NCBI RefSeq assembly: GCF_000003815.2
Contig: NC_049983.1
Span: forward strand, 16,582,018-16,646,017
Length of the DNA stretch: 64,000 bases
Direction: 5' to 3'
Origin: Branchiostoma floridae
Taxonomy: Eukaryota > Chordata > Leptocardii > Amphioxiformes > Branchiostomatidae
Part shown: positions 5,168 to 63,659 of the stretch, piece after piece
Layout of the letters: each line of letters starts with the position of its first letter
Position numbering within the stretch: position 1 is the stretch's first letter
Notes under the pieces: model-generated
What the model was told of the DNA's origin: nothing
What the model saw: the letters and a program-made list of their open reading frames with translations, nothing else
The model's database searches: none
Position numbers and translations under genes: made by a program

Positions 5168-5499
5168 ATGGTAATCGACGGGCTCTGCGACTTATGGACC
5201 TCGTGGGGTCTGTTAGGGGTTTTGGTGGCAGCGGGCTGCTGTCTCCTGGTCGCCTGGATCATGCGGCGACCCCCAAACTTCCCCCCAGGTCCACGGGGCT
5301 GGCCGCTGTTTGGCGTGTCAAAGGTCTGGCGATGTTGTTGTGTTTTCATTTGTGTAACCACTGAGTTGAAGTTTGCTAATACTGCAGTCTGGGGACCAAA
5401 TACACTATGATGTATTGCAGATTGACAGTGATCATGTTATGTTTGTATCATTTTTGTTAGTACGATAAATTCATGTTTAACTTAGTATAATACACATGT

Positions 5500-5537
<38 letters not shown>

Positions 5538-8500: not shown

Positions 8501-10255
8501 TACTTATCCTTCTCAGTTAACTTGCTTGTAGAGCAGACAAAGCACTTGCTATATCATATTCTGATTAGTACGTGAAATGTGACTGTTGTTATAGATGCCG
8601 TACACGGAGGCGACCCTTACCGAGGTGAGCCGGCTGGCAAGCATCGCTCCCCTCTCCGTGCCGCACGCCGCAAGCAACGACGTCACATTCCGGGGCTACC
8701 ACATTCCTAAGGTACTTCTTAGCCGCTGATAAGTTAGCATCCTCTCATGTCAGGCAAGCATACTGGCCTGCCGTCCGGCCTTCCCGATTGGTTAGCCAAT
8801 CCCCCTCTTGCTACATGTTTGAGGAAAAGTTATCACGTTGCCCTAGACCGAAGCTATCCCAAACATGACCAAGTTTCAGCTTCCCTATTCCCACTCATCA
8901 AGAATCATCATAGAAAATGTAACCCTTTTGCAGTTTAGCCAATGAGTGCGAGGTTCGGTCATGACGGGCGTCTTTATAGTGCGCTCATTGGTAGTGTCGC
9001 ACTGTCGGCACTCAGCGGGACAGGTCTGTCCTTGGTGCTGAATGCTTGTCACCCTCTCCCCCCCCTCTCACTCTTTCTCTTTCTTTCTCTCTCCCCTCTC
9101 AGTCTCTCAGTATCTCTCTATCTCTCTCTAGACAGTTTAATTGACTACAAATTATGTCTAGTAGGCTCTGTACGTGTTAAATTTTACTCTTTGCTGGCCG
9201 CCTGTAGTTAGGGCTTTCACATTGGCACCCACTGGTACTAGCACGATTAAATCGCGCTTATAGCGACTCGCCCAACATCCAGCCGATCCTTTGCGGAGAG
9301 GGGCCAGTTACAGCCTCTGAGGAGAGCAGAGCTTTGTGTTACACAGTCTACCACAGGTACCTTTTTCATCCTTGTCATTATTCCACCAGTTCAATAATAC
9401 ATTGCCTGTGATTCCAGGGCACCGTTGTACAGGCTAACCTGTGGGCGGTGCACCACGACCCCCAGCTCTGGCCGGACCCGCACCGCTTCGACCCCGCCCG
9501 TTTCCTTGACGACGCCGGGAAGTTCGTGAAGAGAGACGAAGTCATTCCGTTCTCGATCGGTGAGTCATTCGTGTAAACGATATGAAGTAGAGAGCATCAT
9601 CATATAGTCAGCCTGTACAGACCTGAAAGAAGCCTCCATTTATATTTTAGCCATACAGCTATCATGATCATGTCATAAGCATCAAGTGGTCTGTCTTCTC
9701 GTTAGGATCATTAACTTAGAATCTTAAGTATAAGCTCATCGGTTGGGATTCCTAGCATAGCAGTTCCAAATTGTTGTGCCCTTTGGAAAGCCACTTTTCA
9801 CCTATTTCCTCCCACAGCTCAGGTAAAAGTGAGGGACGTAAATAGGGCTGTTTGAGAAGACCCACATCTCGCGTAGGTTTCAGATCTCACCACCTTCGTT
9901 GGAAAGAGTTTGGGGCCATCCCAGCGTGGATGAATCAACTCTTAAAGTCCAGTCTTACGCCGCCTTTATCATCTGTGTAAAACTGGTGTGATACGCATAA
10001 AGATAGTTTACCGTTTATGCAAAGTATGGGTTAATGTCGTTCGCTTCGCTGAAGCGGTTCTTTATCATTTCAGGTCGTCGCGTTTGCCTTGGAGAGCAGC
10101 TGGCCAGGATGGAGCTCTTCCTGTTCTTCACCTCCCTGCTGCAGCGCTTTAGCTTCAAACTGCCAGAGGGCGCACCAGTACCGTCTGAAGAAGGGGTGTT
10201 CGGAGCCACGCATTCTCCCGTGCCGTTCAAACTTGTGGCGGTAGCGAGGGACTAG
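5168..10255 (+). CDS. Cytochrome P450, clan 2 (CYP2-like), complete, eight exons
   Basis: Exons: 5168-5323, 5761-5950, 6465-6838, 7159-7329, 8011-8175, 8595-8711, 9418-9559, 10074-10255 (stop TAG). All introns are GT/AG and the phases join into one frame of about 498 aa, normal for the family. The N-terminus has a membrane anchor ([18 protein letters not shown]) and a proline hinge ([12 protein letters not shown]). Other landmarks are the C-helix WKEHRKF, the I-helix oxygen-activation motif AGTETT in exon 5, the K-helix ExxR as EVSR in exon 6, DPARF in exon 7, and the haem-binding FSIGRRVCLG spanning exons 7-8 with the cysteine ligand in exon 8. These show an intact microsomal haem monooxygenase anchored in the ER. 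Substrate cannot be read from sequence; clan-2 enzymes act on xenobiotics, fatty acids or steroids. A subfamily (for example CYP2U-like) is not assigned. Donor GTTTGT after exon 5 is weak but keeps phase. Confidence 0.93.
5512..5716. repeat. CA and GT dinucleotide tracts in P450 intron 1
   Basis: A (CA)n run at about 5512-5532 and interrupted GT/GTGTAC runs at about 5642-5716 lie just upstream of the exon-2 acceptor. Confidence 0.85.
9240..9356. repeat. Dispersed repeat, copy 1 (P450 intron 6)
   Basis: Matches 54212-54330 in the same orientation: shared GATTAAATC, CGCTTATAGC, AACATCC, GGGGCCAGTTA and TTTGTGTTACACAG blocks. No coding frame. The type of element is unknown. Confidence 0.6.
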
Positions 10256-14963: not shown

Positions 14964-16572
14964 TTATTTGCAAGTTCGTGCCCGAGGGCTAATTGCAAGT
15001 ACATAGTATACACATAGTGACAATGGACAGTCATAAACAATGTTCTAATCTAATACTAGTGTTGGCTATTTCTAAGCAGGTTGGGTTTGACTTCTTTTTT
15101 GGAAGCAGAGGGAGACGAAAAGCCCCACATTTTCTAAAATTTGTGGGTTCTGCGATTTCAAGAGAAAAGTGGCCTTCTGTTTGTCTGTCAATGTGGGGAA
15201 GTTGGGATAAGTCTTTGTGACTTCTCTAAACAAGGTGATTCTTTCGGTTTCGTTGAATGAACATTTGGAAATGAAATGTGTTTCGTCTCCCACTGCTTTT
15301 GATGTACAATATTTACAAATCCTTTCACACACTGGTAATCTCTTGTATCTCCCTCTTTCCACTTCTAGAGGATGAGCGCTAATTCTGACTTTGCTTATTG
15401 CGGAGCGCACCTCGAAATCAACTAGTTCTAAGTACTTCTCTCTAGCGTATACAGATTTACAAGTTTTGTAGAATCTCAGCTTACCGGTATCTATACTTAT
15501 ATTATGTAGAGACGTCTGGATATACATATTGGTAATTCTATTCCTTATCATATTACATACATATACAGGGTCATAGAGTGAGTTATCAGAGTACCAGAGA
15601 TAAGAATATCCACTATAATCAAGTATTTCTTTAACACGCTGCAACAATGATCTTCTCCGGCCGTTTACGACGGAGTTATGCTGTTCCAAGAGTGCATTTA
15701 CTTGTAATGGATGCTTAGTATAATCCATTTGTGTTAAACACAACCAATATTTTACAAGTCGAACGGAAATATCTATGTCTAGTGGAAATCTACCTAATTC
15801 GGACCTACATGCTAAATTACTACTATTTCTAGAGACTCCAAGAATGTTCTTGCAGAATTGGTTGTGTGTAATTTCGATCGGAGATGTATCATTTAATTTC
15901 TCGGTACCCCAAATTTCACAGCCATATAACAGAATGGGTTTAACACAGGAATCGAATATTCTTAGTAGGCTATCGGGTGAGACTGATGAACGGGTTAGAC
16001 ATTTGAAGCTGTGCATGGCTTTGCGCGCTTTGTTTGACAATTGTTTTTTGGCTAATGAAAAGGTACCTGATGATGTTATGGTGATACCTAGGTAGCAATA
16101 TGAAGATACGATGTCTACTCTCTCTTGTCCGAATAAAAAGTTTTGTTTTGAAAATAATCGGCCAGATTTGTTGAATATGATAATTTTTGTTTTCTTTAGA
16201 TTCACTTCGAGCTTCCATTTAGTGCAGAATATGTTTAGTTTATCTAAAGCGCTTTGCAGTCCTTTTTCGGTCTCAGAGAATAAAACTACGTCGTCTGCAT
16301 ATAGTAAACTTGACACTAATAAATTATTGAGTGCGGGTGGAGAACATTCGGTATTATCTAACTCGTGAACAAGGTCGTTTATAAAAAGATTAAAAAGGGT
16401 AGGGCTTAGGTTGCACCCCTGTCTGACACCCTTATTGGTAACAAATGGAGGTGTTAGGCCAGATGACGTTTTGACGCATGTGCTGGGTTTTTCATACATG
16501 CATTTAATAAGACTGTAAAAGTTCCCTCCTATTCCCGAGTTGAGTAATTTGAAGCGGAGCACCATTGAAAGT
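14955..16572 (-). mobile_element. 5'-truncated LINE (non-LTR retrotransposon), reverse transcriptase
   Basis: A minus-strand frame of 497 codons (16565 to 15072) encodes the C-terminal half of a LINE polymerase: GVRQGCNLSPTLFNLFINDL, the catalytic YADDVVLFS, the LEVNLKKTK thumb motif, a long C-terminal region, and a CX2CX9HX4C zinc-knuckle-like motif (CKYC...H...C) near the end. The fingers, the first palm aspartate and the endonuclease are missing because the copy breaks off near 16572, as expected for 5' truncation during target-primed reverse transcription. The frame is intact within what remains, so the insertion is fairly young. The 3' UTR contains a block at about 14990 that recurs at 39557-39585, and an AATAAA at 14963-14968 (minus). 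Clade is probably within the CR1/L2/Rex-like group; this is inference. The copy cannot mobilise itself. Confidence 0.85.
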
Positions 16573-16887
16573 GTAAAACTTCATCTCTACAGTCCACTAC
16601 CTCCGCTTTTTGATCATCCAACTTTCAAAGTTAGATATGTTCAAGCTGATCGATCTAGACGTACGGAAGAACTCAAAACAGCAACTCAAATGCGCTTGGG
16701 TTGAGTTTTGGACATTTACATGAAACTAGATGGCTACAAGAGGTGCAATTAGCCCGTAACTAGGCTGCCATTGGCTAATTGTCGACGGCGGTCAGTGACC
16801 TGCTAGCAGTCATCTGATTGGTCCTCGCTAGAAACCGCCGGAAATCTAGTGCATATCAAATAGTGTACACGCCCCCCCCCCCCGGAA

Positions 16888-19890: not shown

Positions 19891-20008
19891 TTTCGCTCCA
19901 GGCAGAGGTCTTTCTGAAGTGTTTTTATTTGGCTTTCTATTTTGCCAGGTTTTGTTTCTGTCCGACAGGTCAAAAATAAGCCAAACCCTAACCTCTGCTT
20001 GGCGAGTA
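19891..20008. mobile_element. Short inverted-repeat element (9-bp-TSD family), degenerate copy
   Basis: The left end is a mutated CTCCAGGCAGAGG, the right end CCTCTGCTTGGCGAGTA, and the interior shares TTTGGCTTTCTATTTTG with the other copies. The target duplication is not clear here. Confidence 0.55.
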
Positions 20009-21169
20009 GGTATTCGGGGGAGTGGGGAGCGTCGTGTACTTCCGAACTTGACATTTATGTAGTTTAGGATGTATATATATATATATATAAGACATGGAGA
20101 GAAAAGACGATGATTTAGGGCATCATTTTTATGACTTTGCCAACGGAAATGAACTAGAACGTTGGTCAAGTGTTACAGTCATGCTATTTTTGAGGGAGTA
20201 ACAGTTGTGTAGAAACGTGCCCTACTCTGAGAAAAAAAGAAGTTCTAACTTGGTACCTGCTATTTTGGGGACGTGGCAAACGTGCTGAACGTGACATATT
20301 TCTATCGGTGACTACTTTCAAGTACAAAGAGAAGGCGTTTTGACTTCTTAAATAATGCTGTGGATTCAACTCTTACTTGTTTACTGGCGCATTCTTAGTT
20401 TTATAAACGTTGCCATTTTTAGCTACCAAGCGTGCCTAGCGCTTGAAAAACTACGTACTAGTATGTTACCAGCAAACGTAAAGTTGTTATTCGCACTAAG
20501 TCCGGTCAGAGAGGGAGAGAGAATAAGGGAGAGTCTTTGCCATACTACCAGCATCCGAAAGAAACAAGAATCTGTGCCGCCACGACGCTTAAAATGTAAG
20601 TTCACGTCATGTGGGTCAATAACCTTACAGTCGCTTGCTGGGGAAACGTTGATCTGTAGTTAATTAATTCCGTCACGGTGAATAAGTAATCGTGAAGTCA
20701 TTTGGCCTCGCTTTATATCAAACTCTGCCTCTCTTTACCTAGCCTACATTAGGTGTCATCGCCACTTTGCCGTATTTACGCACTTTGACGGCCGCCTCAG
20801 TGGGTCGTTTCATATTACAAATTCACTATTTGATAAACATTTTAACTTGCCGACGCTGTGAGGCCGAATCGAGTTGTGGCTTGAAACTCTATTTCCACTC
20901 TACTACGAGGAAAGATTTGAGGTGTTCCACATGATTTGTGTCTTAGTGTTTTCGTTGTGGAACGTCCGGAAAAGCGGGGTGTGATCATGACGTTCTAGAA
21001 CTCCTCGGTAACCCTAGGAGACTGGTCACGTGGCGGTGAAACAACATGTTAGGACAGTACGCACGAGTGCGGGGGTAGTGCAAGTGACTACGTACGCCGG
21101 TAGAAAAACTAACGGTGCGATAACTACGACATCCTTTCTACGATGATCTTGACAGAAACCTAGGCTCAA
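20009..21169. other. Stretch upstream of the large unidentified gene
   Basis: A TA run lies at about 20071-20088. No gene supported; the last few hundred bases probably hold the promoter and 5' UTR of the downstream gene. Confidence 0.4.
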
Positions 21170-24100
21170 ATGAGCGGAAACATCGTCCTACCGAAGCTGG
21201 CGGTCTTCGGGCCAGAGAAAGAGGGAGAGGGGGACGCTTTGGGACAACAGAAACAGCGTCGGACGAAACACTCTAAACGGGTAAGTACGCTACGGCATCT
21301 ACTTTACACATAGCACAGCAAGTACAGTCTTATTAAAAAAAAGAATAGCTGTATCATAGATTTTGTGTGACATAGCCTTACGTGTACGTAATATTGTTTG
21401 CGGATTTTTAGACCACAAAAATATATTTGTTAGTCTGTGGCTTAAAAGATGAGATGACAAGTGTACAAACTTCCCCATGGCAACGCTCTGTCGTTTGGGG
21501 ATGCACTGAAGCGTGAGGATGTGCCTCTATCAACAGTGTCTATAGAAACCTTTCAAAGTACATTCTCTTCTTTGTATGTGTATGAGTGCTACATTGACTT
21601 CTGTGTATAGGACAAAAAGATACGTTCGCAAAATTCATCGTGGGTACTAGTATGTGGAAAGCGAGTATCAAAAGATTTGTGTTGAGGAAATATTACGATA
21701 ATGCTGAAGTTTATAGTTAAGTATTTTGTTTTCCGTATACTTCCGTTCAACTTCCCGTCATCCTGGGGTTTTAGTTTTACTGCGCGGACACATTCAGAAG
21801 TCGTAGTCGTAGCTACTGGCTAGAATTTTGATGTTGTATTTTCAAGCAACGCGGGTGGTGACAGAACTAGTTACCGACAAGGATCTAACACAGCACTTTT
21901 CGATAATAAATTTTGTACGTGCACGACCACCGGTACCACGCATGCGGTTGTTCGACGATACTACGGTAAATGTGTACTTCTGATATACTTTCTAGACTTC
22001 TGACTTATTGTTCTACATCATAAATAAACTGCTTGTACAATTGTTCATTGTTTTCTGGCACTAAAATTTATACAATCTAGATAAACTAAACTGGGAATGT
22101 GAGCGGGACATAAAATACGAAAACATTAAGATAAAGTATACAGCTTACACAGTACTGTTTATACGTACTTTGATGTTTATCAAACTGTAGAAACAAATGA
22201 CGTTTTGCTAAAACAACATCCCCGTTTCTATTGAACATACGGCGCCAACCACGTATTACATCAGAAAGAATGGTAAAGGTGCTGCAGTGTCATAAGTGTA
22301 ATCGCAAAAATTCTCGGGATAGTTGTAGATATGTCGTGCACTGACAGACTTGTCGCACGAACTCTCCAAGCAGAGGTTTGGCTCTGGTTGATTTTACGTG
22401 TTTTTATGGCTTTCTATTTTACCCTGTTTTGCTCATGTCTGGTGGACACTAGAATGAAACTTAAGTCAGAAACAACTGGAGCCAAATCATTGCAAGTCGC
22501 ACGATAGGTTTTTTTTGGGGGGGGGGGGGGGAGGCAGTCGTGGTTGTACACTTACAGATCGCACGACAGGCTTGCGACACCATAAATTACAAGGACAGAC
22601 ACGGACGTCTCGTACTAAAAACCCAGCTGTCCTATATGACGTAAAAAAATTTAGACCACTATTCTTTGGATCCTGGTCGAAATTTTGACGTAACACGAAT
22701 CCATACGGCGAAAGTGATTGCACCTCCATGACCACTGGGGCTCAAAAGTTGTCAACCAGCCTTCCGGGCGCGTTCGTGGAAGGGAGGGTATTGTACATGT
22801 GTATGTGTGTCTTCGTTATCAGGCAGATCGGACGCGATAACGCATTATTAGATCAGGCAATAGTAAAGTCTATTTACCTTTAGTCTGATAGGTCTGCCAT
22901 TGCGGATTGAGTGGTCGTCACACAACAGCAAGATTACACAAAGACAAAATGTTGTCGCAAAGAAAAAAATAGAAAAATCGTCAATTTTGTATCAAATATG
23001 TATGGCGACTGTTCGGTGTCCAAAAATATATAACTTTCGAATGATTACAAATTATTCCATCCGCTACCCTTCAAAGTACTAGTAGTACTACTGCTGGTAT
23101 TTGCTAAGTGAGTAATTTGCATTTGAATACCTTTAAAATAATTTCCATAATTCAGAAATAGAAAACAAACTAAATGTTCACCTTACACAATACAAGTTTA
23201 CTTAACGCCTTACCGGGATTCTGTGTCTAATATGTTTAGAGACGATGTTGTCTCTCTCCAGAATCATAAAGATCAAAATGGCGGTATTGTTCCGTGGTGT
23301 CACGCTACAAGTTGGTCTCTTTTTCATCGCTCTGGACACGCTGTCACGGCGGTGTGGACACTTCTCGCCGGTAAATATTGACGGAACCGGCTGTGTCTAA
23401 AAACCCTGTCAGTCTTTCGTGAATAAATCTTACCGGGGAAGGTTTACAAAGTGTCGAGTGAGAAGAAAGTGTTTGGGACAATGTCTCTTGGCCGCTGGAT
23501 TGTTGTCCAAAAAGGTCAGTGACATGTCGACACGAGGACCAACTAAATACATGTATTCCGAAGACGAACGAACATTGAAAAGGAAAGATAGGTACAAAAT
23601 GTTGTCCTACCGAAAGGGGGTCTATAAAATCAATTGTAGCTGCAAATGGTTCAATACTGCAGACATGTTTTGATAGAGAGTGTTTTGACTTTGAAAAGGT
23701 CAATGAGGCCCGTCAAATGTGCTAAGGTTATATATCCGGACGAAGTACCGTATGCACTTGACTCTCCTTGCGATTTTGAAGATGACATGGGCGATGACAT
23801 CCTGGCGGTAAGCAAATTAAAGCAAATGGCAGTCGCTGACAGCGTGACCAGCTAAGATACACGCAGAATTTATAAGTTATCAGCTGAGAGTTTTATCAAG
23901 TCTGGTGTTATACAAGGATTTCATCACCTGAGCTAAGACTGAATTGCATCACCTGTCCTATCATAAAATTAAAATGTCTTTGAACAGCCGCATATATTGA
24001 TAGGAAATTGCACTCATAAATAGATGTACCTCTAATCCCGATACACTTAGGCATTTATATGGCCGATTTGAAGGTCAGGATATCACGATAAGACTGGAGT

Positions 24101-27100
24101 GTTTACAGCAGTAAAACATCGATTACGTCATCATTACCCCCTGTCGTCTCGATAAGCGCATTCCCAGGATGCCACCGGGCCATTTCCGATCGTTTGATAT
24201 CAGTGCCCGGATGTGAGGGGGCCATTTCCGGTGATCATGAATTCAAAGTTCAATGTCATGACAATGTCTGGAAGTGACGTTGCATTTACGTACGGTGATT
24301 AAGTCGACAAAATTGTCGTGGAAACAATCATAATTAAATACTGTGTAACTGACGAAAACCAATGTGAAATTTGAAATCACCAAACTGTACATGCCTTCAT
24401 GTACTAAGTATTCATAACTGATTGTAGCATGGACCACAATTCCCTTTTCTATTGTACTATTTTCAATATGATTCATTGCTCTCTACTACTGCAATACACC
24501 TTTCTCACGCGGCGGCCATGATAGATCTAAAACGAGTTCAATGTGGCAAACAAAAGGCTGTCCATCATAATTAGCAGTTCGACCAATGGTAGCCTGCCAA
24601 TTAGGAAATCGACCAATAAGTGAATGGCTGCAAATTCGTTAAAAATTTGCATTATTATGTTTTTATTTTGCATCTCTTAATGGACTATGGGGTCAGTCTA
24701 CACTACTCTAAATTGCTACATTTTTCGGTGCATAACACTTATTGTAATATTTATTATTCCATCTTATATAATGAAATTTGTGTGGTTTGGGGGAAAACTA
24801 AATGGGACCTGATTTTAGAAATAAGTTTTGTCTTTTTGCCTCATTGACCTCTTCTTGGATCTATCATGGCCGCCGCGTGAGAAAGGTGTATATCAAGCGG
24901 AGTTACTTGATTCTAAATTATCCACAAGCCCCCCTCCCCTATCCGACCCCTATTGCGACCCAATGTTGCACGTCCCTTAGAAAAACCCAACACACGTGAC
25001 TATCAAAGGAATTCGTGAAATCCACACGTCCAAAACACGTTCGAGGTCAAGTTGTCTATAAACAGTAGACAAATGATATGATTGTTGTGTGATGTTGTCC
25101 TGGACTTTGAGTGGAATGGGCTCAGTGGGTGCTATAGAATGGTACTCACACATCCGTGCAGGGCTGCGTCGTTTTGATTTTTGTTTGTTCCAGTAGATTG
25201 TAGGTTTCAGCTTTGTTTGTAACTTGCGATTTGTAATGAGCGACTTTTGAAAAAAAAGTAAGGCCTACAAATCATCGTCTTTTCAGCGTGCCAGTGTGCT
25301 ACCCAGCGTCCCCCATGGCCAGACCAGCAGGGCGACGCACGGAAAGCCCCCTACGGTAGAAAAGAAATCATCTCTTAAGATCGACGTGCGGCACAGCGGA
25401 GAATTTCTCCCGACGATACAGGAACCCAGACACGCCGCTTCGAAAGGGGAGACGAGCGGGATGAAGAACAAGGTAAGGATGAGAAGAAAAGAGATAGAGA
25501 GACAATGGAGGTGGAAACGTAAACATAACTAGAGTTCCACGAAACACATACCTTCGCCAAACAATCAAGTGTTGTTATGGAGAATGCCTTTATCAATGAC
25601 TTGATGGTTTTATAGCTTCTCAAGTTATGTTCTCCGCACACACACACACTGAGCCCGCTGCAGTACCGATGGAAAATACCGGGCGAACAATTTTCAAACT
25701 CAACCTTTGTTTCTGCAACCGCTACTCAATACCAAGTACCATGAAGATCCATCAATCAGTTCTCCAGTTATACTGTTGACCTACATAAAGACTCACCTAA
25801 CACTATAATGGCTTAACCAAAAGTTAAATCTTCTTGGCGAAGGTTAGGAAAAGGCCACAAACCACCAAGCTTCCACTTTTCCCTGCCACATAAAGCATCA
25901 CCAAAATAAGGGGGAAAACGCCCCTTCACATTAAAATGGAGAAACCCCTTCCCACAGTGCACAAACAAAGAACATGGCACTTGCAAAATGAAAACTAATA
26001 AACAATGTGTCAGCAAAAATAACATCTACTGTTTTGCTGACACAAATATGTCATGAACTACACAAGTCTGGGGCACAGATGTCCTTAGACACTTAGCACT
26101 GACTGTCCAGAAAAGAGGTCGATTTGAGCATTTACACATTCTTCTAATTATCATGTTAATTAAGCCCTGATTTGCATACAATAATTTCAGGATTTTAATC
26201 ATTACCTACGGTATGTACATACCAAAAATAATGCAAATCCACCAACCCCTGCTTGATTTATTCTCTTCCAAAGATAACAACAAAATCGCCCACTGCAGTT
26301 CATAACAAGCCGCCAGGGGGCCCAAACTTACACGACTTACTCCCTACCCAAAGACGTATCCACTAGCCGAAAATCCTTAACCTGCCACTTCGGGATAACT
26401 TTAACGCCAACTTCGACGCTCCGCTGCAGTACCGCAACTTGTTGCCAGGACGCCCATAATCGAACTTGACCGTCGTTTTCCAAACCCCTAAATAATTACC
26501 AAATATAATGCAAAACAATCCTCAGCGTCAAAAGTTATCTTGTACGCAAATACACACACACACACACTCACCCCGCTGCACTCATGACAGAAAGTGCCAG
26601 AAGTACCATTTTCGTACAAAACCTTGGTATACGCAATTGCAACTCAAATACCAAATATCGTAACATTCCATCCACAGCTGCTCAAGTTATATGAGATTGA
26701 CCTACATATTGGGACACCCGAAAATTTTCTAACCAAAATATGACCTTCTTGGCGAAGGTAACAAGGAAATCAAGAGATTAAAGCATGATGAAAGAATTGA
26801 AGGGGGTGTCAGAAGGAAGAAAGGACGGAAAAGAGAACTTAGTAAAGGGCACGAAGATGGAGGAATAAAGAAATAAGGAAGGAAAATTGCTAATAAAGGA
26901 AAACTCGAAATGAGAGAAAGAATGAAGATGTGCAAGAGAAAAAGAAAGGGCGAAAACCATGCATGCTATCGGAAAAGAAAAACAAGGAATACTTACATAT
27001 ACTTGAATATAACTGTTTTTGTGTAAAATTCATGTGGTACCATTTCTACAAGTTTTGAGTCATTTTATATTACCTACAACCTGTGTGTATCTAGTTCCTG

Positions 27101-30100
27101 ACGTTCCTGTACCTACAACACGCCGTGTACGGTACCGGTACGTACGGTCAGCGGGGCAGAGCGATCCGCGACCGGACGGACAAAAACAAACTGTCGGTGG
27201 AGGGGACGGACATTCGCCTGCCGCCACCCAAAGCACCGACGGAGCCCCGGAGGAAAAGTCTCCAGGTAAGTCTCCTTTCAATGTGGAGTGGCGTGTCTAT
27301 TACGTAACAAATTAGACATTGTAACGTTTTATTATGTTGGGTAACCTTTCCATGCCGGTGCCCGGCCAGGCCGTGTGTGGAAAAGAAACGTATGATATAA
27401 AACACAACAAAACAAACTAGACGTGGCAAAAATGAACTTAGTTACCTCCATGAAATTTCATGGAGGTTATATTTTACCCCGCGTTTGTCTGTGTGTCTGT
27501 GTGTCTGTGTGTAAACAAGATAACTCAAGAACGGCTGGGTGGATTGGTTTCATACTTGGTGTGTTGGTAGGGTGTGATGAAAGCTGGAAATGATTAGATT
27601 TTGGGCCCCCTAGCGGCTCCCCTTGGTACTGCAGCGCAACTTCCGGTTTTGCTATCTTGGTGTTCTGAACATGCTATGGTCACGATTTTTGAGTATTAGA
27701 TAGCTCTTGTGCTCAGGAAGAAGTGACATAAGTTTGGGCCCCCTAGCGTCTAGTTTTGGGATAGCAGGGGCATTTTTGTCAAAAACTTCTGAAGAGGATA
27801 ACTCAAGAAGGGAACAACGGATTTTCATGATTTTTGGTATGTAGGTACCTTGGGCAATGTTGTACAAGATGAAATACTAATTATGCAAAATAGGAGCAAA
27901 TTTGCATAATTGATGACAACATTCAATCATAGCAGTTTTTTCTGTGTATCTCTTGTCTTGGACGTTATATGGTCTTGAAATTTGGGTGGTAGATAGCTTG
28001 CAGTGTCATGACAAAGTGGAGCAAGTTTCAGCCCCCTAACATTCAATTTAAGAACTGCAGGGGCATTTTTGTCAAGACATTCCAAAGAGGATAACTGCAG
28101 AAAGGATTAACGGATTGTCATCATATTAGGCATGCGGGTACCTTAGGCAAAGATGTTCATAATGATATACATGTTATGCAAATGAGGACTTAATTTGCAT
28201 AATTAATGAGGAAATTGTATAATTCCATTGTTTTCAATCAATAACTGGACTTCTGATAAATGTAACACATGTTAATTATGATAGGTGGAATATAAGCAGA
28301 TACTAAATATGGTAATGAGGAACTTATTTGCATAATTTAAGTAAAAATTGCAAAACCACTTTATGATTAATAATGGGAATTTTATAATTGCGACATGTGT
28401 ACGATTGTCAATGATGAACAACACCATGCATAAATCATGTTAATGTCTTAGTCATTTGCGTGAAATTTACAAAAGCTCTAAATTTTCATGGAGGTATGAG
28501 GTCGCCGAACTCTAGTTGTGTATATTTCTTGATACACACTTTAATTTTTTTGTAGCCACAAACAACCCGATCAGGCCACAGTTTAGAAATATGATGGAAT
28601 AATAAGGGCTTAAGGATTCACTTCAAATTGCCATAAACTACATACATTACAATTGCTGTTCGATATGACATTTTCACGTACGTGACGTCAACATGCTGCT
28701 TTGGTCAGAAGTCAATTCAAATTTACCTGACAACTTCGGGGTTTAACTATCCAAAAAGGAGTCAAAGTCACGTGACTGAAAACATCCTAACAATTAACAC
28801 CACTCTGCCAAAATCGCTCAAAAGAACTGGTATCTTAAATTGAACTTAAAACATTTCTATTTCAGAATGTGAAGTCCACGTCTACGGTGTCGTCAGAAGG
28901 TAGCCTAGAGAACCAGGCACCTGAGGCTGACGACCCTCAGACGGTACAAAAAAGACTGCATACCTTGATGAATATACACAGCATGGGCATCCCAATAGAG
29001 GTTTGTTCCACATATACATTAACATATATATACATGTATGGCCTTCCTCATCATCCGTAAGCTTGATTCCTTCAAATTTTAACTTTGCTGTTACACATAG
29101 CCTACATAGCAGGCTCTCTGTGCCCTTTTTCCGTCTATTTTTGTTAGCTCCTGATACACTTTTGCTCACCATTTCTTTCTTTTTTTCCATTGGGTCCCTT
29201 GACTGTCGGCCCTGTAAAAAGAAATGGCCAGCTAAAGTGTATCATAAGCCCCAAAAAGACGAAAAAAAGGCCCCAGAGAGCCTGCTATAGAGGCTAATTG
29301 CACCAGTGTCCCTGCATAATGGCAACTGTAATACATGTATGCATTACAGTGTATATAATTTTGTAGATTACGAACAAAGACTACGTCCCGGGCGTCATCT
29401 GCCGGCCGCTGTTCCACTGCGCGCGCTGCAGAGACGTCTGGGACAGGCTAGGAGAGGTGCCGGGCAGCTGTGACCAGCCGTCGCGGCCTGTGCGAGGCAA
29501 CGCCTTCTGGCTAACACGGGAGGCCAGCACCGGGCTGATGCAGGTCGGGACTTGATTTTGACTTTATTTGGATCCACAATTGGCTTGACATTTTTGTTAA
29601 CTATTCTTCCAGTGGTCCTAATCATAACGTCATAGGACACATCAATACAATGTCACTGTGATAACGGACATGGCAGAAAGACTACAAAAATAATCACACT
29701 AAAATTACATCAGATACATTATATACCTGTACACTTCTGCAAAATGAGAGAAAACACAAGTTCATGCAGTAGCTGTCCTATCAAGTTCCAGAGGTGAGAC
29801 ATACGGTAGAGGATGCTCTACATCCAGTCTCTCATTTTTGGCGACACCTCATAGGTGGAGCCGTTTCTACGATCGAGTTGTTTTCTTCTTCTCCTTCCTT
29901 TTTTCTGGAGTTTTAACTCGTAACTGTTTCACCAAAAAGCAGTTACTCAAGCAACTTGATTTTGGAAATGTGAGGTTCCAGAATCATATCCAGTTGCTTG
30001 AGTAACTCCTTTTTGGCGTATCTTATTACCTAGATATGTAACTTTTTCGACGTAGTGACTATTTTGTGTATAACAAGATAGACGCATAGCAAAAGAAACT

Positions 30101-33100
30101 CTCATGGAAAGTCCTGTCAGCATGTTAAGTATAAATGACTTACGGTTAGTGTCTTACCCACAGGGAGTGGACCCGAAGTCACAAGCCATTCGCATGAAAG
30201 CTGGCCGACACGGCGAGAAACTGCTACTGATGGGCGCCACAACAGTACGTTTGTTGCTCTTTTTGTGTTTTGTGTTTCTTGTTGTCTTTGACCTCTCACT
30301 TTTGTGACCCTAGCAACAACCATAAGAGCAAAGGTCTAAGATTTATTTTCACTTATTGTAGTGAAGCAAGGCACTAGCAACAATTAGTTGGCTTTGGATC
30401 TTTATGTGCATTGATTTTTATACCTATCTGGACTTACCGTGAAGGTACTTCTAGTACACGTATATACAGTACAAATGCGCTCTCCTTTCAATCACTAAAA
30501 CATGGTGACAGCGGTGGGATCCTAGAACAAAATCTAGATTGTAGGACAATTGTGACGATTTCTGTCCCAGTACTTTTACATATGAAGTATCATATACGAC
30601 ATTGCGATGCCATTATAAAGTCTAAAATGTCTGTACGTCCTTCATCCGCATGGTTGCTGCGTGTTTTTGCCATTTGCCCACTGACGTATAGTTGCAATAA
30701 AGGTCTCTTTCCGCTGTTCACAGGGTAGCCACCGTCTGCTGTATGACGAGGAAGCCTCGTCCCTCCTGAGCCTGCTGAGGGACCTGCGGCACCAGGCCGC
30801 GGCCAGGCGGGAGGAAGAGGAGGAGGATGACGACTACTGGAGCTACGGCACCGACGAGTTCAGCGAGGAGGATCTGGACGTCGAGGACGACGGAAAAGAA
30901 GGTACGAAAACATGATGGTGGTGATGAGCCGTCCCACAATTCCCGTGCCACAGGAGATTGTGGGCAAGGTCAGGGGTTAAGGCCCCCAGAAACTACCCTG
31001 GTATCCAGAGAACAGCGCTCGCGGCTACGGTTCTTTCCCGGGCCGCTAGCAACATAGCCCCGTAAACCGACTTTAGCCGGCCCGGGGAGATACGCCTCAC
31101 GCAGTGAAGGCGTAAACTCCCTTAGCCGGCTAAGTTGTACTCTGATATCCAGGGTACCAGAAACAGACTAGCTAAACGTAAGACTTTGAATGTAGACCAC
31201 AGTGCATCACTCACTCACTCACTTATAATCCGGTTTAGCGTCCGCTGTTCCCCGTACGTATTGTAATGGTTTGACGTCACAGGATGTCGTTCCATTCAGA
31301 TAGCTGACCTCCAGCTGCCTCTGGCAAGGGAGCCTTGCATATGCGCAATCGGAACCGTGATATGGCTTATTTCGATCAAGAAGAAAACTGTAGATTATTT
31401 GTATGATCGCTGACGAACACTTTAGACAGACTGATCGAGTTGCCATACTACAGTAATGTAATATGTACAATAATAAGTACAGTAATTTGTCTTTTATCAT
31501 GTTTTCTTAAACTTACACACGTACATGACTATTGTACAGTCCACGTATCCACATTTTAGAGGTCTGATAGTAAGCGGCAAACTTGCCAAAAATAAGGCAT
31601 TCTATTGACTCGTACGCGTCGTTTCGATGCAGGTACATCAATGAGAGCATCCCATCGGAAGGAAGGGCGGAGAAGAGCGCAGAAGGCATCCGTGCGGCGG
31701 AGGGGGAGTCTGGAGACCGCGCCGGAGTCGCACGCCAGCAGCCAGGACAGCGGCTTCACCAGTCAGCAGGGCGGCGGGGCCGGCCACGGGCTCCTCCCGA
31801 TGCTGCTGCGGATCCTGGAGAAGGACTCCCGGCCGGGCTCCACCAAAGTTCTCGGTGACTTGGACGAGCGGCAGCTGGTCTTGCAGCTCCTGGACGCCAG
31901 CGATGACATCGACGACGCGGCTTGGGCCGAAGAAGGCGCACACTTCTTGAACTCGTTAAAATCCAACCACGTCGTCAGGTTGACGCCTAACAACCTTCCC
32001 GCGTTGGTGGCTGAGATCAAGCGGGGAACGATAGCGGTACAGACGGGGCCTGACGGCTCGATCAGGCTCGGGACATACGGGCCGGACGGCGTGTTCGTCC
32101 CGTTCGAGGCCAGCGACGAAGACGGTAGGCCGATCTCTGAACAGTTCGCAAGGATGCTGGAAAGCACATTAACGTCACAGTTGACACAGGTGCTATCATC
32201 TGGCGGATCTACGGATCCAGACTCAAAAGGTGCGGCAGGACTTCTAAAGGCGCTGATGAACAACAGCGATCTAGCGGCCTCGGTCGGTGGGTCGGACGTG
32301 TCGGACATTGTGAACAAACTACGTGAACACCTAGCCGACGACAAACAAACAAAAGCAAAGGAAGGACCATTCGAAACAGCTCGGATGGCTGATTTCATGA
32401 TAGATATAATGAAGACAATCTTAAAAGATGGTAAACTCCTTACAGAAGATCAAGTCAAACAAGTCCTAAAATCAGGAGGGAATGAAGACTTACTGTTGAA
32501 ACGTCTCTCCGACGGTAGGCTTTACTTTGGCGTTAAAGACCATAACGGAGAATTCGTGCCTTTCGGGACATACGGAGAGGATGGAGTATTCTACTTCGGC
32601 GCTATGGATGGAAATGGAACGTTCCAACTCACGGGGAGGGTAGACCATACAGGCAACTTTGAACCTGGCGTGATCAAGGACGACGGACTATTCCATGTTG
32701 TGGAGGATGGGGTAAGCGAGGCCATGGCTTCGGTCATGTCAAAGTTGAAAGGTCAGCCGGGATGGTTGAAGCAGTACGTCGAGACAAGAATCAGACGACA
32801 GGAAGTGGTAGTTCATATCCCAGACCACGCCGGCCTTGGTAAGTCAAACATTATTCTCTTCTACTGTTTCTTAAACTTCTTCTACTACTATTTCTTCTAC
32901 TACTTCTTCTACTTCTACTGTTTCTTAAACTTCTTCTACTGTTTCTTAAACTTCGACACAGCATCACTGCATATGCGCACTCAAAAGTGTGAAATGGCTT
33001 GTTCCCACTGAATTAGTATCCATACGTCTAATCTAATATGTATTTAGGCGTTATCCAAAATCATTATGATGCTTGAAAGTAGCATAAGCGTTTGATCTTT

Positions 33101-34905
33101 GCAAAGCGTAATCGTAAATGTAAGAAATTATTTCAGCCAAAAAAAAAACAACAATAAAACACTTGCACAAGCAGAAGAAACGTTTTCTGTATTCTTTTTC
33201 AATTTGTGTTGGAAACCGTTGTAATCATAATCGTTTATGAGCACACGCGCATTGTCGTTTCGCAGATGTGACGGGAGAGGGCACCGATCTGAGCAACGAC
33301 GAGGATACAGACAGCGGCAAAACTGCCATCGAGCGACAGAAACGGAGCAAAGACGACCCCCTGTACGACATACGAGCGGCAGACGGACCCACCACGTCCG
33401 ACCTACGACAACAGTACGACTCATCCTCGTACGAACCTTTCCAACGCGACGCCAAGGGACAGAAACCCGGTGGGCAGACAGACTCTCAGGCAGTCATGGG
33501 CAAGGAGGGACGCACAGGCATTGCCCAAGACGTCACCGCAGACAAGACGAGCGACATGAAAGGACGAGAGGGAAGCTTTATGTCAAGTAGAGAGTCTAGC
33601 TCCTTAGAACCCCGTCTTGAAAAACGACACAAGGTTATGATCGGGTCAAAGAACATCAAGACGTTGCGGCAGGGAAAGAAGGCTCAAGAAAGGGAGAAGA
33701 TAAAGAACAAATTTGTAAAGAACAGGACGGGTAAACCTGACACACAGCCGGGTAAACTGGCTGACTATCCTTCCACGCCTGCGCAGGAGACAGGAACGCC
33801 CTCATTGGTTAGTCGAGAGGGAACCTTTTCCAGCATGGTTGGGTCGGAAACGAGTATCTCCGAAGCGTTACTGCGACAGCGACGAGTGTCGGTATCCTCA
33901 AATCAGGACAACTCAGTTGGAAGTAAAGTACCAGGCTCTGACGGTAGAGCTGTTCACTTGGGAGCGGACGGGAGGGACGGTCTCGCCGTACAGACAGAGG
34001 AGACGGGGTCTCAGGACACACCGTCACGGAAAAGGCGAGAAATCGTCAAGAAAACAAGATTATCGAATCAAGCAACGAGATATCCGAACAGGGCTAACCA
34101 AGGGGAAGGCATGGCAGACAGTACTGGTCACGACAGAGGAGGTGAGGACGGTATGGTTGGTTCTCAGCAGGACTTAAAAAACGGACAAAAACTCGCGTCA
34201 CTATCCTACAAAGTAGGAACAGATCTATCGGATGAAAGATTGCAATCAATAGGTATTGAAGGGGATGACTCTAACTCGTTACCCGCTCGAGGGCTGGCAC
34301 CCCTTCCCAAGTCAGTGAAGAGGTCCAGTGATGTACAAGGAATGCTTTCACCGACACCGCATTTTCCCGATCCCAAACGGAACACTCTTCCGCCGCTTCC
34401 GACGGTGGATAACTCAGGAAGAGCGTTTAAGAGTCCACGGTACCGTAGATCCACGACCTCGCTGGCGGCGCCCGTCGTACCCACCACCGAAGGCGACCTC
34501 GACGGAACAACGGAGTTCACCGTGTCTGCTTCAAACAAAAACGAGTCGTCTGAGGAGTCGTCAAACTCCACCGAGACGGAGAGCGGAAGCAGCGACAGTT
34601 CCTCGGAATCCGAGTTCGAGTCCGTCTCAAGAAAGAGACAACGTCACAAGATTGACCTCCCTGACCTTGACGGCATCTCGGCCCTCTCCTTCACCCGGGC
34701 CTTCACGTACTCGTACCTACCGCTCCCCCTAGCGTACAGGGAGAGGAACAACAAGCTGAAGGCGCGGGCGGCTCTCTTCAATCAACTGAAGAAACCGATC
34801 AAGCCGGCAAGGAAGGCGCGACCGACAAAACAGGACATTGGTGTTAATACAGACACTAAAGTTGACAAGACAAAAAAGGAAAAGAAAACTAAATCTAACA
34901 GATGA
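21170..34905 (+). CDS. Unrecognised large protein (about 1,294 aa), nine exons, Gly-x-Phe repeats
   Basis: Exons: 21170-21280, 25287-25472, 27095-27265, 28866-29000, 29367-29543, 30164-30244, 30724-30901, 31633-32838, 33266-34905 (stop). All borders are GT/AG; exons 1-6 are phase 0 and exons 7-9 join in phase 1. The start MSGNIVLPKLAVFGPEK is the first ATG. Residues about 323-346 are very acidic (REEEEEDDDYWSYG and following). Residues 476-512 and 638-706 carry short repeats of 11-12 residues built on G-x-F/Y (for example DGVFVPFE, NGEFVPFGTYGED, DGVFYFGAMDGN, TGNFEPGVIKDD), probably beta-strand units. The last exon is low complexity with a Ser/Glu run (about 1172-1202), then a less biased segment (LPDLDGISALSFTRAFTYSY) and a Lys-rich end. 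No signal peptide or membrane segment, so intracellular. I do not recognise the family and assign no function. Exons 8-9 are the most secure; the split of small exons 1-7 rests on splice sites and frame. Confidence 0.8.
22361..22495. mobile_element. Short inverted-repeat element with 9-bp target duplication
   Basis: A 135-bp element flanked by GTCGCACGA on both sides (22352-22360 and 22496-22504). The left end ACTCTCCAAGCAGAGG and the following TTTGGCTCTGGTTG pair imperfectly with the right end (CAACTGGAGCCAAATC). Same family as 37179, 37955 and 57843. It lies in intron 1 of the large gene. Confidence 0.75.
23703..23807 (+). CDS. Possible alternative first exon of the large gene
   Basis: An ATG at 23703 opens 35 codons (MRPVKCAKVIYPDEVPYAL and an acidic end DSPCDFEDDMGDDILA) followed directly by a good donor GTAAGC at 23808. 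The end is phase 0, matching exon 2 of the large gene at 25287. Alternatively it could be an internal exon starting after the AG at 23726. No transcript evidence. Confidence 0.3.
24494..24891. mobile_element. MITE with perfect 34-bp inverted ends, copy 1
   Basis: Perfect inverted repeats at 24494-24527 and 24858-24891, starting ATACACCTTTCTCACGCGGC. The flanks fit a TA or AT duplication, pointing to a Tc1/mariner-like origin. The interior is AT-rich with no transposase. A second, more decayed copy is at about 56786-57095. Confidence 0.8.
25527..26760 (-). repeat. Long interspersed repeat, reverse copy
   Basis: Starts with ACTAGAGTTCCACGAA and ends near CTTCTTGGCGAAGGTAA. Read in reverse it shares its end (GGTATGTGTTTCGTGGAACT then CTAGTT) with the repeats ending at 28517 and 41485. 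It contains internal near-duplicates (CTTCTTGGCGAAGGTTA at about 25831 and again at 26749), CA microsatellites and CCGCTGCAGTACC blocks. Non-coding, within intron 2. Confidence 0.55.
27435..28517 (+). repeat. Long interspersed repeat, forward copy
   Basis: Begins TTAGTTACCTCCATGAAATT with a short palindrome (CTCCATGAAATTTCATGGAG) and ends TTTTCATGGAGGTATGAGG followed by GAACTCTAGTTG. It contains GGGCCCCCTAGCG twice and TTGCATAATTAATGA blocks, shared with 40090-41485. Non-coding, within intron 3. Confidence 0.65.
29800..30075 (-). repeat. Dispersed repeat with a strong hairpin
   Basis: Two 25-bp arms, 29932-29956 and 29992-30016, are reverse complements with one mismatch (CCAAAAAGCAGTTACTCAAG on the left), separated by a 35-base loop. 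I associate similar strings with dispersed repeats in several invertebrate genomes, from memory only. It lies in intron 5 of the large gene. Confidence 0.5.
30994..31156. mobile_element. Foldback MITE
   Basis: A 163-bp element with ends TACCCTGGTATCCAGAG and CTCTGATATCCAGGGTA (inverted, one mismatch and a small offset). The interior is GC-rich with CCCGGGCCG and GGCCCGGGGAG blocks. It lies in intron 7 of the large gene. Confidence 0.65.
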
Positions 34906-35178: not shown

Positions 35179-35184
35179 AATAAA
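35179..35184 (+). promoter_or_regulatory. Polyadenylation signal of the large gene
   Basis: AATAAA 274 bases after the stop codon, the first canonical signal downstream. Confidence 0.6.
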
Positions 35185-42097: not shown

Positions 42098-42151
42098 CAC
42101 AGGAAGAGGGACTTTTCTTAAGTCGAACTTTTTTAACTTCATTCTAAGTTT

Positions 42152-42347
42152 ATGATATATATGTATAGTATGATCAAAGAAATACTTGTTCTAGCAATCT
42201 TGGTAGGATGCACAGGTTTAGACACGGCATGTTTTCCTGGGTGCAGGAAAGCACAATCATGGGCACCCTGCGTTCCTTATAGGGTACCTCAACACGGTGT
42301 GCCGTTTGATAACACTTGTATCTCATGCACCTCGCAACAACAGCAGC

Positions 42348-42378
<31 letters not shown>

Positions 42379-44803
42379 TGAAAACTCCTCTCAGCCAGCC
42401 TCGGTATGCCTCCCTAACAACGTACATGTGGGGGTTAGAGGGTTTCCGTTTGGAATACTGTCAAAACTGCGACCACCTAAGAATAATCTAATCTCTGAGC
42501 TTGCCCTTCTTAACTGTGAAATCTCAGATCTAGAACAGGACACTTTGGCTGCGTTTCCACGACTAAATCACTTATACCTCGACTTCAACAACTTGACTCA
42601 CGTGAGGCGAGACTGGTTTGATGGCTTGGTGACCCCAGAATTGTTACTAACTTTGTCACTTTCACACAACCATATCAACAACATCGACCCAAAATGCTTC
42701 CAAAACCTGACTTACTTGCAAACACTGCTACTGGAAGGTAACTCTTTACAAAATGTCCAGCCGTCCTGGTCCCATGGATTGAAAGCTTTACTCCATCTAT
42801 CCTTGAAGTCGAACTTCATCGAAAGTATTCATCAAGAAGCTTTCAAGTCATTGTCAATGCTGGAAACCTTAGACATCAGCAGAAACGCGTTGACGTGTCT
42901 GTCAGGGGAAACTGTCAAAGGGCTAAGTGGGCTGAAGCATCTTGATTTGGGTGGGAATAGATCTCTCGTCGATTCTGCTTGGGTGATGAAATGGCATCTT
43001 AGTTACCGATACCTTCGCTACTTCGGCCATAATGTCGCCCTGCTGGTGAATGGAACACTTTTCTGTATTACTAAAGGTCACCTGAAGCGATATGACGTCA
43101 GGGTATACAAGGAAACGCAGCTAGCTCGGCCTGGTGGAGATATATACATGCGATGTCGTTCACTGAACATATGGGGTGCTGTTGGAAGTAAGACTGACCT
43201 GCCATTTGTGATGATATCAGCTAACAGAGAAGCAGACAAGCCACATGACACACTCAAGGTCACACACTTGTGCAGACGTGCTTGGGAAGATGCTGGCAGC
43301 GTTAAGATAGCATTAAGAGAGGGCTCTACTCTACAGATAGTTCCCATGGATGTAGACAAGTCTAGCAAACTTCGGTTTGTTGCTGTGGTCATGTCTGACG
43401 TCACAGCTAGAGTAGGCAGGAACACATCTTCTGTTCGGAGCTACAACGGAAGTATTGATACTTTTGGTCATGAGGAAAGTAAGAATGTGACTTGTTTGTA
43501 TAACGCGCTAGGAAAGACCCACAGGTATGTCTTCACCGCGCCCGTGTCAAACACCCCTGGAAGCCCCGTGTGTGAAGAGAAGATGAGAGTGACTCACACA
43601 ACATCAGAGCCCCAAACCCACACAACCAGGGGCATCCTGGACCAGACCAACTCCAACACAACTCCAACTGTGACGGTACAACCGGGGAAGGAGAGATCCC
43701 TACACGTAGGAATCATCGCAGTGTTAGCTGTAGTAGGGGTTGTCTTGGTAGCACTGCTTGTAACATGTCTGATTCGGAGACAACAGTGTTGCTCACGGGG
43801 TCACCACGCTGCGGCTGGTTCGCAGGGGCCTCCGCTGGCCGTCATCTCTACGGGTCGCTGGATGATCAGTGAAGAAAACAGTCGGGATGTATCAGAGGAG
43901 GTCAGCCAAAACGAGGCTGACCAGGTAACAGGCACGGGCACGGGCACGGGCACGGGCACACGGGACGCTTCATCTGCGGATGATGATGAGGCCCAGTACA
44001 GCGGAATTCCCGACGAGTACTTCAACTACTACAACACACGGCCGGGAGTACAACATCCTTACTGGGAGATTCCTGATGACTTCTTCAACTACTACAACAC
44101 ACGACCGGGGGCACAAAATCCTTACTGGGAGATCCCAGATGAGTACTACAGCTACGAGAACACACGTCCCAAATCCTTCCCCCCATCATCCCGCCGACAC
44201 CCCGAGGATGATGACACGGTACGTTTCTACGCCGCTGGAGCTGAGGTGGCCCTTCCTTCATCAACCAGGCTGGGCGACAGGCATCCAGCCTATGGCACAG
44301 CCTCGCCAACAACAGCAGCTCGAAACAGTTACCAAACTGCACGTCAGAGGACGACAAGCATCAGACCGTATGGAACACTCCCCCGAACCAGGTCAGACCC
44401 ACAGATATCTGTACGCCACCGGATGGTACACGTCAGTTCGTATGGAGTGTCTGTAGCAGGCAGAAACAGAGCCAGGGATCTAGCTTTAATGGGTAAATAT
44501 AGCAGACTACAGGGCAGGAGACAGGACAGAACCTTGTACCATAACCCCACTGCTCATGCTGCAATGGCAGCCACACAGCGCAATAACGTAAGGTACCAAG
44601 TTAACAACAAAACACGCGAAAACATGTCATACCAACCAGCACAAAACATTCCCCCCACCGAATCTACAGGTGAAGACTTCCCGATGACACAGGAGCAGGG
44701 CAGAGAAGGCCGGATTTACAGGGCACAAACCTTCAGCACTGCTGAGGTAAAGTCAGGGGTAAAGCAGTCCACAAACAAGGCTAGCCATCGCAAAAGTATT
44801 TAG
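42152..44803 (+). CDS. Intronless LRR transmembrane receptor-like protein with polyglutamine
   Basis: One 883-codon exon. The seventh residue (ATG at 42170) is an equally good start and gives a shorter signal peptide (MIKEILVLAILVGCTGL). A cysteine-rich N-terminal cap contains a run of 14 glutamines (residues 62-75, mostly CAA). LRR units follow at about 113-270 (for example LNHLYLDFNNLTH, LQTLLLEGNSLQN, LETLDISRNALTC). A region of about 240 residues with scattered cysteines and N-glycosylation sites replaces a standard LRR C-terminal cap. The membrane segment is about 517-541 (VGIIAVLAVVGVVLVALLV). The tail has a GT dipeptide run (594-603) and three units of about 21 residues built on IPDEY.NYYNTRP (619-676). 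These suggest a cell-surface receptor with tyrosine-rich cytoplasmic signalling or docking sites; ligand and partners are unknown. An ATG-proximal acceptor-like CTAAG at 42145-42149 may mark a 5' UTR intron. Confidence 0.88.
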
Positions 44804-45559: not shown

Positions 45560-46500
45560 GTTGACATATTTTTGGACATGCTAAATATTCGGACTGCGTC
45601 CGGGCACGATGTTCAATATTTCCCATATCTGGAAATATCATGAGTCAGGAATTGTCTTGTTATGTATCCGGACAAATAAGACTTTCCTGTTTTTCAAGAT
45701 ACGCGCCATTGACGTTTCTTGCCTCCGAATACGTGATATGTTCTACATTCTTTGCATATCCAAGGTCCATATATTTCGTTAAGGAATACCCGGACAAATT
45801 AGGAGTTTGCACGAAACATGATGTGAATTTTTTCTGGGCCATTGTCAGATGACATTTTCATATTCATTATGTCTCAGAATGTCATGATTCATGAAATGTT
45901 TTGGCACATGCCCGGACGGATAGAATTTCCCGTTCTTCCGAATACGTGCCAGCGACGTTTCATGTTTTCGAACTCATACTATTTTCTTTTCCTTCCATTT
46001 ACGAGACATATCCGCGACAGATATTCCATGGATTTTAGGACAGATTTGGAGTTAGCATATTCTGACCGTTACTGATAAAGGTATTCTATACGTGAATTGT
46101 GAATCGGTGATTGTTTTATTGCGCATCTGAACAAATAAGACTGCAATTTTTTGCCGAAATTTTCGCTCCTTCCAAATTCATATTCCGTTCCATTTACGAC
46201 AGATGTCGACAGATTACGACAGATGATTTGTTGGGTATCCTAAAAAGGTTTCCTATCTTGTCAAATACACGTCATTAACGTTTTTGTTTCTGTATATGTG
46301 TTTTTATTTTACAACGAGTATGCCCGATGTCGATGTATGTTTACTCTTTAATTTTCTGGTAATTAAGGCTTATTAGCTACCATATACATGTGCAAATATA
46401 CTAACATCGACATTCACAATCAAATGACACAGAAAACAATTTTTGCGATGGTATCAATTATGAGTCAAGTATTATTGTTTCTTTGCATATCCGGACAATA
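45560..46500. other. Satellite-like stretch with scattered CCGGA motifs
   Basis: Repeated loose motifs (TATCCGGACAAAT at 45668, ACCCGGACAAAT at 45788, GCCCGGACGGAT at 45910, CATATCCGGACAATATC at 46487) without a fixed period. The open frames here are not convincing genes. Confidence 0.45.
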
Positions 46501-46523
46501 TCAAGAACAACATTCACTCAAAA

Positions 46524-47027
46524 CACTCCACCCCAGCGGTGCAGTTTGGGATAGGTCCATATCCGGATAATATCTTGAACAAAGTTCAGTCAAAACACTC
46601 CACCCCAGCGGTGCAGTTTGGGATAGGTCCATATCCGGACAATATCTTGAACAAAGTTCAGTCAAAACACTCCACCCCAGCGGTGCAGTTTGGGATAGGT
46701 CCATATCCGGACAATATCTTGAACAAAGTTCAGTCAAAACACTCCACCCCAGCGGTGCAGTTTGGGATAGGTCCATATCCGGACAATATCTTGAACAAAG
46801 TTCAGTCAAAACACTCCACCCCAGCGGTGCAGTTTGGGATAGGTCCATATCCGGACAATATCTTGAACAAAGTTCAGTCAAAACACTCCACACCAGCGGT
46901 GCAGTTTGGTATAAGTCCATATCCGGACAATATCTTGAACAAAATTCGGTCAAAACACTCCACACCAGCGGTTCAGTTTGGGATAGATCCATATACGGAC
47001 AATATCATGACAAAAAGTCACTCATGA
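46524..47027. repeat. 72-bp tandem array, seven copies
   Basis: Unit starts occur at 46524, 46596, 46668, 46740, 46812, 46884 and 46956, exactly 72 bases apart. Copies 2-5 are almost identical; copies 6-7 diverge. Each contains CATATCCGGACAATATC. Since 72 is a multiple of three, long open frames arise on both strands (24-residue repeats), but there is no start context or splice support for a protein. Confidence 0.93.
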
Positions 47028-47175
47028 TATTGAATACCAGCGTTGCTATGTGGGAATGGTCCATATCCGGACAATATCACGAGGCACTCGTAAAGCGGTT
47101 ATGCAAGCTGTGCAAAGTGCCGAGCAGACCAGTGCGTTGGCATGTCAACGGTGCGCCAGGCACTGGGGAAGTCGC

Positions 47176-62828: not shown

Positions 62829-63659
62829 ATGGTGGACTACCTCCGCACCAACTCGAGTTTAGAACGCGAGCAGTGGACGCTGCAGCGACTCAACTCCTTC
62901 GAGGACATCAGCGACAGCTCGAGCTCGACCTCCTCGGTGTCGTCCGACAGGTTGAGTCCCGGGAGTGGGTCGTCAGATCTCAGCCCGTGTTCAGAGGACG
63001 GGGACGTCTTTCTCGACTACTTGTTTTCGCAGGGGCTGGCCGACGCGATGGACCGGGCGCACGCAGAGCTCTCGTGGGATGACATGGCAGCTGAGTACAG
63101 GTCGCAAACCGAAGCCATCGATCACCAACCACCACACGTGGCTTCAGACGGTATACCTAAAGACCTCGTAGACCTCTTTTTAAAGGACGATTACTTCGCC
63201 CCGACTGACGAGAAAGTCGGTATCATCACCGCCGCCGCAAGCCCGCAGTTCGCCGCGGAGCCGTACTTCGCCGAGCCCGCGCCGCCACAGCTACTGTCGG
63301 GCCATCAGGATGTCAATCAACCCGCCATGCCTGTCGATCTGTCCACCGCCAGTCACCGACACGTGTCCCCCAAACCCGTGGTCAAAACTGTGGATGTGAC
63401 GAAGCAAGTCCTCACCCTACCCCTCAAGCCCAACAAGCCCCCGCCGGTCCTGATCAAGACCGTGAAGATGCCCGTGCCGATCTCCCCCAAGCCCGTCCAG
63501 ACCAGGCGGGAGATCTCTCACCACCAGCCGGCCGCTCAGGTAGCGATGGTCGGCGGTCTGCGGGACATGTCGGCGGACCTCGACAACAGCGACCTCCGTA
63601 TACACAAGTGCAGCTACGCGGGATGTTCCAAGACCTACACCAAAAGTTCACATCTGAAG
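62829..63659 (+). CDS. KLF: Kruppel-like factor, first coding exon (partial gene)
   Basis: The ATG at 62829 opens 277 codons. The N-terminus is Ser-rich and acidic. PVDLS at residues 168-172 is the CtBP co-repressor docking motif known from KLF3, KLF8 and KLF12. A Pro/Val/Lys-rich region follows (KPVVKTVDVTKQVLTLPLK). Zinc finger 1 starts at RIHKCSYAGCSKTYTKSSHL (C261, C266, H275) and stops after K277 at donor GT (63660). An intron right after SSHLK in finger 1 is the usual KLF position, so the other histidine and fingers 2-3 lie beyond the window. The product should be a nuclear regulator binding GC/CACCC boxes, probably a repressor by analogy. The orthology group (3/8/12) rests on PVDLS only. 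Confidence 0.88.

Follow-up and report, generated by a model that had tools for sequence, protein, structure and literature searches.

In PMC7725318, the MORN repeat is described as a unit of 23 residues that folds into one hairpin, with two 6-residue strands and loops of 5 and 6 residues, and that follows a residue code of GxG at positions 1–3, LxY, a glycine at position 10 and YEGEW at positions 13–17. CPAP is described as having about 20 strands arranged in one free-standing sheet (PMC3776556). Here, we analysed a stretch of 64,000 nucleotides of the Branchiostoma floridae genome (NCBI RefSeq assembly GCF_000003815.2, contig NC_049983.1, positions 16,582,018–16,646,017 of the forward strand; hereafter the window), in which a gene at 21170–34905 on the plus strand contains a repeat of the same 23-residue length as MORN and with a different residue code. 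We hold it to be an evenly balanced proposition that this single-copy gene encodes a 1,294-residue adaptor, probably intracellular, that carries a duplicated module made of a helix and an open, single-layer hairpin sheet of 23-residue pitch.

The repeat lies in exon 8 (31633–32838, residues 347–749, with split codons at both ends), which contains both of the clusters of G-x-F/Y units reported in a preliminary description of this DNA. With motif patterns picked after the sequence had been seen, exon 8 showed eight occurrences of [DN]G.[FYIVL], compared to a mean of 1.3 and a maximum of 7 in 20,000 shuffles, and six G.[FY] inside 70 residues, which was matched by none of 20,000 shuffles; the plain G.[FY] count of nine is less special (shuffle maximum 11). 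The clusters are thus real beyond shuffling; however, the unit length of 11–12 residues first assigned to them did not hold. Autocorrelation over residues 637–712 peaks at an offset of 23 (mean BLOSUM62 score 0.79, 15 of 53 positions identical), a value that 5,000 shuffles, each scored at 35 offsets, never attained (highest 0.76). Among 69-residue segments of the whole protein, the 12 best start at residues 632–643, with period 23. Offsets of 11 and 12 score only −0.45 and −0.23, and the shorter unit was rejected as the repeat: it is one strand, and the true repeat is a strand pair of 23 residues, whose code reads roughly DG-x-[FLI]-x-[FL]-G-x(5)-[ND]G-x-F.

Exon 8 also contains a second, upstream version of the same arrangement. 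Residues 487–511 and 640–664 are identical at 11 of 25 positions and align with a score of 52, against 51 for the best of 5,000 shuffles. With no hand-picked segments, residues 399–590 compared with residues 591–748 score 57, which was reached by 1 of 3,000 shuffles. As judged from these alignments, the module is duplicated internally, with the upstream copy being the shorter one. We refer to the two copies as D1 (31986–32126, plus strand, residues 465–511) and D2 (32445–32747, plus strand, residues 618–718, with the 23-residue period). Low-confidence AlphaFold2 models draw D1 as a helix (465–477) followed by three strands (481–484, 490–495 and 501–504), and D2 as a helix (618–627), six or seven strands between residues 633 and 702, and a closing helix (706–718); the two runs drew strands one to five of D2 alike, with turns of 5 residues, at the same low confidence. 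These models lend support to the hairpin-like strands suggested in the preliminary description, and predict a module in which a short helix would be followed by an open single-layer β-hairpin sheet of 23-residue pitch, present in two copies. In a structure comparison, 28 of 50 rows were hairpin-sheet or sheet-shell proteins, comprising, by our grouping, 7 MORN, 5 CPAP, 5 OspA and 11 Rhs or teneurin rows. OspA, a bacterial surface protein absent from the sequence rows of the PDB searches, is only a structural analogue of this predicted single-layer sheet.

That the protein belongs to no recognised family, as had been proposed, was supported by each of the libraries consulted. The whole protein returned no Pfam row at E ≤ 1; searched in three parts (residues 1–346, exon 8 and exon 9), it returned a single row at E ≤ 10, RAP1, which we dismissed as chance (E 0.92, 8.2 bits compared to a curated cut-off of 26.3); the same procedure found families in 5 of 6 neighbouring pieces. 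Exons 8 and 9 gave no NCBIfam row and no row among PDB sequences at E ≤ 10, and a profile of four repeat units reached at best E 0.58 against PDB sequences. The sequence collections searched held prokaryote, phage, plasmid and viral records together with the window's own genome as the sole animal genome. No confirmed relative was found among viral contigs with exon 8 as the query (3 pattern matches, 0 confirmed), among prokaryote contigs with residues 595–748 only (76 pattern matches, 0 confirmed), among phages with a part of exon 8 whose frame was unchecked, or among plasmids with exon 8. In its own genome (513 Mb, 431 contigs; E ≤ 10), exon 8 matches itself alone, exon 9 has three matches besides itself (E 1.1–5.7), and exons 4–7 have one besides themselves (E 5.7); at this search sensitivity, the assembly contains one copy of the gene. 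The literature found, consisting of titles and the beginnings of abstracts, does not name the gene, and an unnamed gene could not be targeted there. Lack of a family is common among large animal genes.

Comparison with MORN (PF02493; TbMORN1, SET7/9, MORN5) shows a shared pitch and a different signature. The pitch of 23 residues is the same, contrary to the earlier suggestion that the spacing was distinct from MORN, as are the glycine turns and the two short strands predicted for each unit; it is the residue code that differs: among four aligned units, GxG is present in one, YxG in two and the Trp in none, and the turn glycine is displaced by one position. Profiles built from MORN chains scored 3.6 and 3.3 bits on the repeat segment, values reached by 89 and 34 of 2,000 shuffles (1,913 and 1,371 of which were scored), and one from the genome's own MORN loci scored 4.1 bits, with 27 of 2,000 shuffles (1,517 scored) at least as high. 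Meaningless as scores on their own, these values place the segment in the best 1.4–4.5 per cent of its own shuffles; the reversed segment scored 2.6 and 2.4 bits with the MORN-chain profiles and was left unscored by the third. Alignment to MORN with hhalign gave a probability of 0.6, with 27 of 200 shuffles as good; by comparison, three of the genome's MORN frames gave 97–98, and a further frame, which comes from a MORN locus but lies outside the list of 17 MORN frames used in the reverse search, gave 75. In that reverse search, with the four-unit profile against 380 frames of MORN loci, the 17 MORN frames supplied 4 of the top 6 and 13 of the top 39 rows, and only 6 of the 17 outscored their own shuffles in 95 or more of 100 cases; the best row was a non-MORN frame (6.2 bits, E 0.29). 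We rejected filing the repeat as MORN, since it fails both the code and the profile tests. It has the MORN pitch, fails the MORN signature and leans faintly towards MORN, a picture compatible with common descent without demonstrating it.

These comparisons bear on how the repeat arose and what it resembles. One explanation is descent from MORN, the array having diverged strongly and its residue code having eroded. We consider this unlikely: there is no Pfam row, the profile scores stay at the few bits given above, the reverse search is topped by a non-MORN frame, the hhalign probability is far from those of the controls, and the 13 places at which the Pfam MORN model matches this genome (E ≤ 0.001) do not include this gene. 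Because the reverse search leans faintly towards MORN, we raised our estimate for this explanation slightly and lowered that for an independent origin by a little. The latter, in which the gene would represent an unnamed animal repeat family whose helix-capped open hairpin sheet reached the MORN pitch independently, with its own code, and was duplicated within one single-copy gene, is set against the collections listed above, with their one animal genome, and is a tentative and rather unlikely proposal, slightly ahead of divergence from MORN. If it were true, open hairpin sheets would have their physical optimum at 23 residues, and this length would not be a sign of MORN ancestry. In either case, a pitch equal to that of MORN with a different code allows geometric convergence of hairpin sheets to be tested against a reach of MORN beyond its present profiles.

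Two further folds were weighed. The repeat could form part of a β-propeller or kelch-like blade set, as the 69-residue hairpin stretch returned 15 PDB rows headed by eight chains named Cake (whole-sequence E 0.0002–0.12), which are designed propellers, as well as a streptogramin B lactonase at E 0.12, and Foldseek matched virginiamycin B lyase and Seh1. However, the Cake rows add up a 16-residue match of 4–5 bits that is counted eight or nine times (three alignments shown), and no single stretch passes even E 10, and these rows were discarded as a family assignment; moreover, no kelch or WD row appears in Pfam, and the seven and three strands of the low-confidence models are few for a propeller; we regard this fold as very improbable. 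Alternatively, the repeat could form an open CPAP G-box-like (TCP10) meander that binds a linear motif, proline-rich or otherwise, and might act at the centriole or cilium. The open-sided meander would be a feature in common with CPAP, but CPAP is described as a single sheet of about 20 strands (PMC3776556). No row was obtained here for the TCP10 Pfam model, which we presume to be in the library, either with the whole protein (E ≤ 1) or with the three parts (E ≤ 10), and no ciliary sign was observed, as X-box-like sites with no or one mismatch are absent from the region around exon 1 (20170–21280); we dropped a ciliary promoter there and view a CPAP-type meander as quite improbable, if less so than a propeller. 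X-box-like sites with two mismatches are common (197 in the window), and the window contains a single perfect match (intron 6, position 30304), where chance would give about 0.7 (hand arithmetic). Intron 5 contains an X-box-like 14-mer twice, in opposite orientations and with one mismatch each (29942–30008); this pair and the match at 30304 are probably chance or a small inverted repeat.

The gene model itself agrees with the nine consistent exons and roughly 1,294 residues originally reported: exon boundaries that were set by eye and then verified with a script yield 1,294 residues and a stop, with GT..AG in all 8 introns and consistent phases. The start codon at 21170 follows an in-frame TAG nine bases upstream (21161), and an AATAAA polyadenylation-like signal (35179–35184, plus strand) starts 274 bases past the stop codon. 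Besides exon 8, the model comprises, all on the plus strand, exon 1 (21170–21280, residues 1–37), exon 2 (25287–25472, 38–99), exon 3 (27095–27265, 100–156, with an internal alternative in-frame acceptor seen by eye), exon 4 (28866–29000, 157–201), exon 5 (29367–29543, 202–260), exon 6 (30164–30244, 261–287), exon 7 (30724–30901, 288–347, acidic and with its last codon split) and exon 9 (33266–34905, 749–1294 and the stop). In exons 1–7, the used frame is open throughout (7 of 7), and their G+C content of 0.50–0.66 exceeds the 0.416–0.447 of three 4-kb blocks spanning 20001–32000. Two observations weigh against exons 1–7: a small codon model ranks the used frame top in only two of these seven exons (4 and 7), while doing so in both exon 8 and exon 9, and a second frame is open in two of the seven (3 and 6). 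Together with one unusual donor (GTCGGG) and the lack of any supporting relative for exons 1–7, these points favour a model in which two genes are fused or exons 1–7 are partly wrong, the true protein consisting of exons 8–9 with another start. Set against this are the eight canonical introns, the matching phases, the single open frame and the high G+C of every exon, and we judge such a fusion or error to be improbable.

The only four cysteines of the protein (residues 213, 219, 222 and 236) all lie in exon 5, and we favour an intracellular protein because four cysteines in 1,294 residues are accompanied by no hydrophobic N-terminal leader visible by eye. The cysteines follow a C-x5-C-x2-C-x13-C spacing (29400–29471), a possible metal site. 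Residues 749–1180 in exon 9 are 24 per cent hydrophobic, and are followed by a Ser/Glu/Thr-rich linker (34528–34635, plus strand, about residues 1170–1205), read from the sequence where a Ser/Glu-rich linker had been described, and by a basic C-terminal segment (34651–34902, plus strand, residues 1211–1294) with 21 Lys/Arg compared to 8 Asp/Glu. One LC8-like motif, with Asn replacing the usual Gln, occurs at residue 1273.

This anatomy suggests an adaptor in which the two open hairpin sheets would serve as docking faces. By analogy with the open meander of CPAP, the exposed sheet faces may bind partner proteins or peptides, and the long, probably flexible flanks and the basic C-terminus could tether or spread the bound partners. 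The gene is a worthwhile but modest lead, supplying a defined fragment (residues 608–719) and a pattern to seek in other deuterostomes.

Several other features are present in the window. A multi-exon cytochrome P450 gene occupies 5000–10252 (Pfam p450 in 2 of 2 pieces), and a reverse transcriptase frame on the minus strand (15075–16580; RVT_1, E 3e-20) resembles, by eye, a long interspersed nuclear element. The frame at 62724–63734 looks coding and, by eye, like the start of a Kruppel-like zinc-finger factor, with no Pfam row for this piece alone. Leucine-rich repeats are encoded twice, in a gene at 1176–2356 (LRR_8, E 9e-12 over 1176–1619) and in a single 887-residue frame at 42137–44800 (Pfam LRR_8, E 4e-31), both with a membrane segment recognised by eye; within the latter frame, a 63-base tandem repeat (44006–44166, 2.6 copies, 83 per cent matches) encodes Tyr-rich repeats. 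Finally, a 72-base minisatellite at 46486–47078 comprises 8.2 copies with 92 per cent matches, with several frames open.
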